From: Bradyrhizobium zhanjiangense
GTDB taxonomy: Bacteria; Pseudomonadota; Alphaproteobacteria; Rhizobiales; Xanthobacteraceae
Reading direction: 5' to 3'
Assembly: GCF_004114935.1 (NCBI RefSeq)
Contig: NZ_CP022221.1
Span: 4,423,001 to 4,487,000, forward strand
DNA length: 64,000 nucleotides
The notes beneath the pieces are model-generated. The model had not been told where the DNA came from, ran no database searches, and worked only from the letters and a program-made list of their open reading frames with translations. The translations under genes were made by a program, and so were the position numbers. Below are positions 22,730 to 25,166 of the stretch, piece by piece (the first letter of the stretch is position 1; each line of letters begins with the position of its first letter).

Positions 22730-22758
22730 TTGACGCGTTGGTTGTGGCGCGATAGGAT
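22730..22758 (+). promoter_or_regulatory. Sigma-70-type promoter for the protease-nuclease gene
   Basis: TTGACG (22730-22735) and TAGGAT (22753-22758) are separated by exactly 17 bases, a near-consensus housekeeping promoter. Transcription would start near 22765, giving a leader of about 135 bases before the start codon. The 309 bases between the broken small gene and the fusion gene hold no other feature that I can support. Confidence 0.55.
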
Positions 22759-22898
22759 TATGAGGCTAAAGTAGTAGGGGGGCCAACCCCGATTTGAACA
22801 ATCATTGGCAGTGAACGGCAGATCAGGCCGCATTGCAGCCTTGGCGCAATTTTCAGCGTCCGCACGTCGATATTCATCCGAATTTTCGAGAGGTCATC

Positions 22899-25106
22899 AT
22901 GTTCATCAAGCCAAGCCTGATCGCGGGCTCAGAAAGGCGATTCAAGCAAGCCGAGTTTTCACCGGAAGCCTTGAACCGGAAATTGGGCGACGGCCCGATC
23001 GAGATGACGGTCGAGAAGAAACGCCTGCGCCAGCGCCAGCTTTTCGCCGAGACACGGGACGTGCAGGCGGCCGAGATCGGCCTCGAGCGGATCATCCAGG
23101 GCAACGATCTCGACAGCATCAACTACCTCGCCAAGGGTACGGCGGCCTCGCGCCCGGTCTGTCGCATCCAGCTCAGGGATATGAGGTCAAATCTGCTCGG
23201 CTATGGCTCGGGCTTTCTGATCGGGCCGGGCCTGCTGCTCACGAACCATCATGTCTTCGGCAAGCCGTCCGACGCAGCCAATTCGATCGCCGATTTCAAC
23301 TACGAACTGGACATTTCGGGACAAGAGCGCGTGCCGGTCAGATTCGGATTCGAGCCGGGCAAATTCTTCTACACCAACGACAGGCTTGATTTCTCGCTCG
23401 TCGCGGTGGCGCCGACCTCGCTGTCAGGCGATGAACACCTCGAGGATTGGGGATGGCTGCCGCTCAGTGGCGCGCCCGGCAAGGCTGACCCTGGCGAGTA
23501 CCTCACCATCGTCCAGCATCCCAGCGGGCAGATGAAGCAGGTCTGCGTCCGCGAGAACAAGCTGCTCAAATATGTCGGTGACTTCCTCTGGTACAACACC
23601 GATACCACGGCCGGCTCGTCGGGCTCGCCGGCGTTTAACCGCTTCTGGCAGGTGGTCGCGCTGCACCACAGCGGCGTCCCGAGGAAGGACGCGCGAGGCC
23701 GCACGCTGACCAAGGATGGCAGAGTGTGGGATGCCTCGATGGACGAAACCTCGATCGACTGGATCGCCAACGAGGGCATCCGGATCAGCGCGATCGTCGC
23801 CGATCTCAAGGTTTCCGTGGGCTCACACCCTCTGATCAAGCCGGTGCTCGACGAGGAGGAGCCGCCGATCCGGCAGGAGGTCGCGAAAGTCCCGCGTCCG
23901 GCCGCCGCAGCTCCCTTCGGAGCGAGTGTCTGGGTCGAGCAGTCTGTCGACGGAAGCTCGCTGGTGGTCCCGATCCGCGTGCCATTGCCAATGTTCAGGA
24001 AGGACATTGCTCCGCTGGCGCCCGTTTCGAACCTTGGGGGCAATGGCGGAGCGCCGAACGGCGGCATGCAGAACGGCGGCAAGCCCTTGATCGTCCCGCC
24101 GGTCGGCCTGTTGCCTCACATCAGCGCGAAGAACGGCCTGCCCATGGAGGCGGTGCATATCGATCAAAGCACGCTGAAATCGCGGCCCGGCTACAAGGCG
24201 AATTTTCTCGGCAGCGGCAAATTTTCCGTCCCCTTGCCGAAGATACCCGCCGCCCTCAAATCCCGGGTTGCGATGTTGAAGGGTAGCTCCAAGCAGTCCG
24301 AGCTGAAATATTTCAACTATAGCGTCGTCATGAACAAGGCGCGCAGGCTCGCCTTCTTCAGCTGCGTCAATATCGACGGCGGCGAGCAGCAGGACGTCGG
24401 CAAGCGCGAAGGCGATTCCTGGCTGCGCGATCCACGCATCGACGATGAGGCCCAGATCGGCGACGAGTTCTACCGCAAGCAGGCCACGTTCGAGGCCGAC
24501 CGCAGCAAGAATCCGTTCGATCGCGGTCATCTCGTGCGCCGTCTCGATGCGACCTGGGGCGACACCGTCGCCGCCGCCAAGCAGCATGGCGACGATTCTT
24601 TCCATTTCACCAATTGCTCGCCGCAATTCTTCTCGTTCAACCAGGGCAAGCAACTCTGGGCCGGACTGGAGGATTATACGCGCGATGTCCTGCTCGAAGG
24701 CGAGGAGAAGGGCATCGTGATGAACGGTCCGGTCTTCGACGGACCGGATGCCGACGGATCGGATTTGCCCAATCCGGCCGGCAAGTCGCACAAGGATCCG
24801 AGCTTCGGTGGCGTTCAAATTCCGAAATACTTCTGGAAAATCCTGATCCGACGCGACGACGACGGTCTCAAGGCGGCGGCATTCCTGATGAGCCAGCGAA
24901 AGCAGGTCATGGAGATCGACCGGATCCAGGAGGCGGATCTGCTCGAGCGGTTGTCCGAAGAGGATGTCAGCGTCTTCCAGGTCTCGATCGCAGACCTGAC
25001 GAAATTGACCAAGCTCGACTTCGGCAATCTTGTCGACGCGGATTCGCACGAGGCGACCTCGGTCGGCCCGCGCCGGATCGAGTCGTATGAGGATATTCGA
25101 ATATAG
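22899..25106 (+). CDS. Trypsin-like serine protease fused to DNA/RNA non-specific endonuclease
   Basis: A 735-residue two-enzyme protein without signal peptide. Residues 1-80 are charged and helical, ending in an ERIIQGNDLDSINYL segment. Residues 80-305 form a chymotrypsin/V8-type protease domain with the whole triad: His118 (LLLTNHHVF), Asp164 (RLDFSLVAV) and Ser241 (TTAGSSGSPAF). Residues 305-410 are a proline- then glycine/asparagine-rich linker. Residues 465-705 form a NUC1/NucA-type nuclease domain with the ββα-metal signature NPFDRGHLVRR (His544), FTNCSPQ (Asn572) and NQGKQLWAGLEDYTRD (Asn581 probable metal ligand). The start ATG has GAGAGG six bases upstream. No partner gene is adjacent. 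I infer a protease-gated nuclease effector; phage defence or programmed death is a hypothesis. Confidence 0.9.
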   Translation: MFIKPSLIAGSERRFKQAEFSPEALNRKLGDGPIEMTVEKKRLRQRQLFAETRDVQAAEIGLERIIQGNDLDSINYLAKGTAASRPVCRIQLRDMRSNLLGYGSGFLIGPGLLLTNHHVFGKPSDAANSIADFNYELDISGQERVPVRFGFEPGKFFYTNDRLDFSLVAVAPTSLSGDEHLEDWGWLPLSGAPGKADPGEYLTIVQHPSGQMKQVCVRENKLLKYVGDFLWYNTDTTAGSSGSPAFNRFWQVVALHHSGVPRKDARGRTLTKDGRVWDASMDETSIDWIANEGIRISAIVADLKVSVGSHPLIKPVLDEEEPPIRQEVAKVPRPAAAAPFGASVWVEQSVDGSSLVVPIRVPLPMFRKDIAPLAPVSNLGGNGGAPNGGMQNGGKPLIVPPVGLLPHISAKNGLPMEAVHIDQSTLKSRPGYKANFLGSGKFSVPLPKIPAALKSRVAMLKGSSKQSELKYFNYSVVMNKARRLAFFSCVNIDGGEQQDVGKREGDSWLRDPRIDDEAQIGDEFYRKQATFEADRSKNPFDRGHLVRRLDATWGDTVAAAKQHGDDSFHFTNCSPQFFSFNQGKQLWAGLEDYTRDVLLEGEEKGIVMNGPVFDGPDADGSDLPNPAGKSHKDPSFGGVQIPKYFWKILIRRDDDGLKAAAFLMSQRKQVMEIDRIQEADLLERLSEEDVSVFQVSIADLTKLTKLDFGNLVDADSHEATSVGPRRIESYEDIRI

Positions 25107-25136: not shown

Positions 25137-25166
25137 GACGTCATCGCGTCAGGCCGCGATGACGTC
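25137..25166. terminator. Hairpin at convergent gene ends
   Basis: Perfect 12-bp stem GACGTCATCGCG (25137-25148) and CGCGATGACGTC (25155-25166) with a six-base loop. It overlaps the last codons (DVIAA) and stop of the LysR gene and follows the protease-nuclease gene, so it may end transcription from both sides. There is a short T-containing stretch but no classic U tract. Confidence 0.55.

Follow-up and report, generated by a model that had tools for sequence, protein, structure and literature searches.

A single-gene trypsin–endonuclease fusion of Bradyrhizobium zhanjiangense as a candidate proteolytically gated conflict protein

Introduction

What use would a bacterium have for an apparently cytoplasmic protein that carries, in one chain, a trypsin-like protease and a nuclease of the endonuclease G (EndoG) class? 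The question is raised by a gene in a 64,000-nt stretch of the Bradyrhizobium zhanjiangense genome (contig NZ_CP022221.1, positions 4,423,001 to 4,487,000; hereafter, the window). An earlier note, written from the letters of this DNA, had proposed a self-contained defense or self-destruct module whose protease responds to stress or phage and relieves the nuclease. The gene is a single-gene, EAD1-free member of the NucA–trypsin class predicted in 2020 (Kaur et al. 2020; PMC7159879). With a probability of roughly 55%, we favor the reading that it encodes a cytoplasmic conflict protein in which a cue leads to assembly of the protease, cutting of a chain of this protein, arming of the nuclease, and killing or arrest of the cell. 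This reading rests on the two domains, their intact active sites, purifying selection, a predicted disordered linker, the absence of a visible export signal, and the conflict-type genes found near relatives.

Results

The gene and the parts of its product are listed below, with the evidence for each; fractions refer to an alignment of 355 relatives.

22899..25106, plus strand: Trypsin_2–Endonuclease_NS fusion gene, 735 amino acids (open reading frame and Pfam; relatives; ratio of nonsynonymous to synonymous substitution rates, dN/dS)
22899..23084, plus strand: N-terminal region, residues 1–62, predicted helical (structure model)
23085..23114, plus strand: segment of residues 63–72, with Glu63 in 355/355 and Arg64 in 352/355 (alignments, fold comparison)
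23205..23663, plus strand: Trypsin_2 domain, residues 103–255 (Pfam E 1.2e-20; fold)
23250..23252, plus strand: catalytic His118 (355/355)
23388..23390, plus strand: catalytic Asp164 (355/355)
23619..23621, plus strand: catalytic Ser241 (355/355)
23877..24137, plus strand: predicted disordered linker, residues 327–413 (predicted local distance difference test score, pLDDT; alignment)
24276..25040, plus strand: Endonuclease_NS domain, residues 460–714 (Pfam E 1.2e-40; fold)
24480..24497, plus strand: low-confidence loop, residues 528–533, just before DRGH, a candidate gate (pLDDT < 50; alignments)
24519..24530, plus strand: DRGH motif, residues 541–544 (alignment)
24612..24614, plus strand: Asn572 of the nuclease site (355/355)

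Both Pfam domain scores lie above the curated cut-offs, and one chain carries the serine protease and the DRGH nuclease with the residues that the earlier note had named. Its flexible linker is matched by the structure model, in which nearly every residue of 327–413 has a pLDDT below 50; an earlier model, for which 34 closely related sequences were used, was of poor quality, with a pLDDT of 53.6, and was set aside. From the model, residues 1–62 may form a propeptide-like or dimerization region. A Pfam scan of the protein returned no domain beyond trypsin and nuclease, an NCBIfam search gave no match, and PADLOC matched the protease domain to RT-Protease_XI twice, weakly. The fusion gene is the single Endonuclease_NS match found in the whole 9.34 Mb single-contig genome.

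By hydropathy, no signal peptide or transmembrane segment was seen, no dedicated signal-peptide predictor having been applied; the highest 19-residue mean in the protein is 1.02, and the best N-terminal window reaches −0.27. An in-frame TTG at 22833 could add 22 N-terminal residues, which are not hydrophobic and show no export signal either, whereas MLIKP or MFIKP forms the start of 58 of 121 aligned relatives. As first proposed, the protein is apparently cytoplasmic.

Relatives were gathered in three overlapping database searches, the best 120 matches of each being listed. The window protein as query gave at least 1,210 matches, a 37%-identical Undibacterium protein at least 2,446, and a 40%-identical Bradyrhizobium fusion at least 3,783; the matches listed include Burkholderiales, Tahibacter, Pyrinomonadaceae, Planctomycetota, Actinomycetota, Dendronalium, and Nibrella. 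The alignment holds the 355 closest matches of 640 to 800 amino acids, 6 of 361 proteins having been dropped for length. Eleven residues are invariant in all 355 (Glu63, His118, Asp164, Thr236, Ser241, His256, Asp541, Gly543, His544, Asn572, and Asn581), and Arg542 is kept in 327. The protease triad, His544, and Asn572 are among the invariant residues, so the intact sites claimed earlier are upheld, and the loss of active-site residues that the earlier note had offered as grounds for doubt is not seen in these closest relatives. A more diverged sample consisted of 19 open reading frames picked from other loci. All 19 show His118 and Asp164 in the alignment, 18 show Ser241 (one frame is broken there), and 17 each show the nuclease histidine and Asn572, with a complete DRGH in just 5 of 17; Glu63 aligns cleanly in 14, 11 of which have Glu–Arg. 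Median dN/dS (12 of 29 relatives) is 0.119 for the whole protein, 0.169 for residues 1–62, 0.108 for the protease, 0.217 for the linker, and 0.074 for the nuclease. These comparisons support the conclusion that both enzyme domains are intact and under purifying selection. A linker patch around Trp345/Glu347 was considered as a family-wide feature and rejected, being conserved solely in the Bradyrhizobium-type set.

A fold search with the protease domain returned FAM111A as the best match, followed by HtrA and V8. The domain shares its triad and fold with V8/glutamyl endopeptidases (PDB 1qy6, 4jcn) but differs in being fused to a nuclease and in having no secretion signal visible by hydropathy; its likeness to the human FAM111A serine protease domain (8s9k, 8s9l) is a fold match only. 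By analogy with FAM111A, its activity may depend on dimerization by way of the helix that precedes the barrel. Thr236 and His256 pair with Thr164 and His184 of V8, the glutamate-specificity residues of that enzyme, and the protease may be Glu-specific. In a weak alignment with V8, residues 63–72 fall close to the point where the mature enzyme starts, and in the comparison with FAM111A they come just ahead of its α1 dimer helix. Glu63 itself falls near the V8 propeptide boundary, where the alignment is weak and which two other alignments do not reach; the region may be a removable propeptide boundary or, instead, a dimer helix.

The nuclease resembles EndoG, EXOG, and the Serratia nuclease in its histidine and asparagine sites and in fold (template modeling score 0.75 by target length against EndoG, 6nju). 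The Foldseek comparisons also contain rows that name autotaxin. Those enzymes lack a protease fusion and are mitochondrial or secreted, unlike the fused and apparently cytoplasmic window protein. The span from Asp511 to Asp541 is 31 residues long in 116 of 117 members of the Bradyrhizobium-type set; in two other fusion sets it is 21 residues (set B, 119/120; set C, 109/118), as it is in 28 of 34 stand-alone actinobacterial nucleases, the remaining 6 not being measurable. The ten extra residues directly precede DRGH, are modeled at low confidence, and hold Glu532, which is present in 117/117 of the Bradyrhizobium-type set. Relative to EndoG, the loop length depends on the alignment, two showing no extra length and one implying some; set C has seven extra residues elsewhere, after Asn581. 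This loop beside DRGH is a candidate gate, and, if the protease is Glu-specific, Glu532 would be a natural cut site.

Several relatives have conflict-type neighbors. The nuclease led to 34 actinobacterial loci, at which a trypsin profile detected no trypsin within the nuclease gene. A related trypsin gene lies downstream, either adjoining or within about 6 kb, at 17 of 23 Streptomyces loci and at none of the 11 loci of other actinobacterial genera, some loci being too short to tell. Two Streptomyces partners were scanned: one is an 1816-residue AAA/STAND-like protein with EAD5 and trypsin, the other an EAD5–trypsin protein. All 17 Streptomyces pairs keep Glu-Glu-hydrophobic-hydrophobic where the fusions have Glu-Arg-Ile-Ile. 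Three further loci come from genomes that share the genus or family. One (L069) has a nuclease frame with trypsin-like motifs near an EAD1–trypsin and an AAA_16 protein, and another (L070) a nuclease frame near an EAD1–trypsin. In the third (L067, 65–17948), a trypsin–Endonuclease_NS fusion clusters with a second trypsin, a caspase, two astacin/matrixin-like proteases, and an 1816-residue trypsin–PLD protein.

Two side observations concern gene organization in relatives. The EndoG-type nuclease gene and the downstream 1816-residue AAA/STAND-like EAD5–trypsin gene occupy 9893–16392 of L034, and the other 16 Streptomyces pairs lie within L033–L066. At L074 (4448–8203, minus strand), a 1252-residue open reading frame joins trypsin, Endonuclease_NS, and a calcineurin-like phosphoesterase in one chain.

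The fusion gene is flanked by a divergent ruvX and a convergent LysR gene, and two further features were noted around it.

22730..22758, plus strand: sigma-70-like promoter match (2 in the region versus 0.5 expected)
25137..25166, no strand assigned: perfect 12-bp inverted repeat with a 6-nt loop (25137–25148/25155–25166), where the fusion gene and the LysR gene converge

The promoter-like sequence of the earlier note is thus recovered. The hairpin exists as a perfect repeat that runs into the 3′ end of the LysR gene, but the scan that gave the promoter match did not list it as a terminator-like site.

The ruvX–LysR interval houses the fusion gene in all 29 Bradyrhizobium-type loci (L002–L030), one of which (L028) is 99% identical at the fusion locus. 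A cyclase-like gene, named by eye with no family search, follows the fusion gene in 16 of the 29, precedes it in 4, and was undetected in 9, the window locus included; entry of the fusion gene into the interval, or a change of its place there, may have happened on more than one occasion. Across the genus, 98 of 265 genomes have some match to the protein. A close orthologue is present in at least 41 of the 265: at least 38 are full-length at 71% identity or more, and at least 3 are in two pieces. At most four candidates were scored per genome, which makes these counts lower bounds. The two-piece copies are in genomes G342, G378, and G297, the last being split in the linker. Twenty of the 23 genomes without a match were fetched at ruvX, and none has the fusion gene there; the ruvX–LysR site is closed in 17 (11 directly, 6 across the cyclase gene) and rearranged in 3. 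Divergence of the fusion gene tracks that of five neighbors pairwise (r 0.86–0.94, 26 of 29 loci), the same correlation being only 0.33–0.54 inside the close clade. Given the closed sites and the matching divergence, the gene is chromosomal, passed on for the most part by vertical descent, and variable among lineages.

Two ideas about the site were rejected. A place in a defense island was dropped because no defense gene was found among the scanned neighbors (eight by Pfam, six by PADLOC) and the chromosomal site is fixed. A defense hotspot between ruvX and LysR was dropped because neither insert at a gene-less site has clear defense genes: L103 carries about 6.8 kb with ABC-transporter, HupE, and metallo-β-lactamase (MBL)-fold genes, and L090 carries methyltransferase/glycosyltransferase genes. 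Plasmids yielded 123 records with a match, which in 14 covers 80% or more of the length. The contexts of five of these records show no clear defense island, although in one, a Nostoc plasmid, a NACHT gene lies some 6.5 kb from the match.

Discussion

The fusion architecture and the idea that the protease activates the nuclease are already published. Kaur et al. 2020 (PMC7159879) predict NucA–trypsin conflict systems ("System 3"), found mostly in alphaproteobacteria and also as a single protein, and propose trypsin and NucA as a core that a proteolytic cascade switches on; that proteolysis deploys the nuclease is a prediction there. An EAD1 partner occurs in a subset, and transmembrane segments or a STAND/bDLD2 partner are optional. 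The window protein, likewise a trypsin-like peptidase and NucA/Endonuclease NS in one chain, differs in having no transmembrane segment seen, no operon, no EAD1 in its genome, and no adjoining STAND gene. The EAD1 search, negative in this genome, was positive in four of seven genomes; no STAND partner was found among the eight scanned neighbors, the rest of the genome not having been searched for STAND.

Proteolytic gating itself has been proven for an MBL-fold nuclease. According to Tuck et al. 2025 (PMC12799240), trypsin-gated MBL pro-nucleases occur in Hachiman, AVAST, Lamassu, and DRT systems, oligomerization triggers the protease, and further enzyme classes are suggested to await discovery; a word search of its main text finds no mention of NucA, Endonuclease_NS, or EndoG. 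Those systems also couple a trypsin-like protease to a nuclease, and they have a disordered loop with a conserved residue by the active site, of which the window loop is a candidate counterpart. They encode the MBL nuclease in a separate gene and fuse the protease to a defense enzyme, whereas the window protein has Endonuclease_NS in the same chain and no core defense enzyme attached. The activation mechanism proposed in the earlier note therefore has precedent, predicted for this architecture and shown for another nuclease fold, and is not new. Among the papers listed in our literature searches (20 of 1,523 in one of them), we found no experimental study of a NUC1–trypsin fusion, subscription journals lying mostly outside our coverage. 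New here are the fold match of the protease to FAM111A, HtrA, and V8, the conserved Glu63–Arg64, the Glu532 loop, and the Streptomyces nucleases with EAD5–trypsin genes.

In the reading that we favor, a cue, phage infection or cell damage, would drive assembly or dimerization of the S1-type protease. The protease would then cut a chain of this protein at one of three places: near Glu63/Arg64 ahead of the protease domain, within the disordered linker, or in the DRGH loop. The cut would arm or free the EndoG-like nuclease, which would degrade nucleic acid and bring about death or arrest of the cell. We infer the cue and the dimerization, the Glu specificity and the cut sites, that the nuclease is restrained, and that the protein serves defense. 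A more specific version is tentative and, on balance, unlikely: a one-protein apoptosis-like device in which a cytosolic FAM111A/V8-type, probably Glu-specific protease, after dimerization and a cut near Glu63/Arg64, would cut its own Glu532 loop or linker and so arm the nuclease.

Several points weigh against the conflict reading. Restraint of the nuclease is its weakest link. No sensor domain was found in the fusion protein. The eight neighbors are, by Pfam, metabolic or housekeeping genes, one having no match, and no defense gene was found among these eight by Pfam or among six by PADLOC. The defense-island context that the earlier note had looked to was thus not found at this locus, and a defense module is favored by relatives near EAD, AAA/STAND-like, or caspase genes but not by the window gene's own surroundings.

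These same surroundings would suit a turnover or lysis enzyme. Protease and nuclease would degrade protein and nucleic acid inside cells that are dying, starved, or differentiating; neither phage nor a proteolytic gate would be involved, and the nuclease would be restrained by being weakly expressed, by the supply of metal, or by an inhibitor encoded elsewhere. The stable place amid metabolic genes, the lack of defense neighbors by PADLOC, and a gate that is a candidate only all suit this explanation; patchy presence (at least 41/265 genus genomes with a close orthologue) and relatives near EAD/AAA genes and on plasmids do not, and we consider it unlikely. The fold match to FAM111A, which acts at DNA–protein crosslinks (PMC10920703), would allow the two domains to act jointly on nucleoprotein, the protease stripping protein and the nuclease, similar to EndoG and EXOG, cutting DNA in crosslink repair or in attack on protein-capped phage DNA. 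A sugar-nonspecific nuclease would be dangerous for repair, relatives have conflict-type neighbors, and ruvX is on the opposite strand and present also without the fusion gene; this explanation is decidedly improbable. Least probable is a role outside the cell, either as an antibacterial effector that a secretion machine passes to rivals or as an enzyme secreted for scavenging: Endonuclease_NS domains are indeed known from secreted enzymes, the extracellular nuclease of Serratia among them, but hydropathy reveals no signal peptide or transmembrane segment here, and no immunity gene is obvious, since on either side the genes that match a family are the divergent ruvX and the convergent LysR gene.

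That bacteria defend themselves with protease-gated nucleases has only recently been proven (Tuck et al. 2025). If the more specific version of the conflict reading is true, proteolytic gating, so far proven for MBL nucleases, would extend to the EndoG class, and it would operate within one polypeptide, with no NTPase sensor, in a family spread across several bacterial phyla. The relatives are very numerous, and a single-gene member could show whether such gating reaches the nuclease class that also takes part in eukaryotic cell death.
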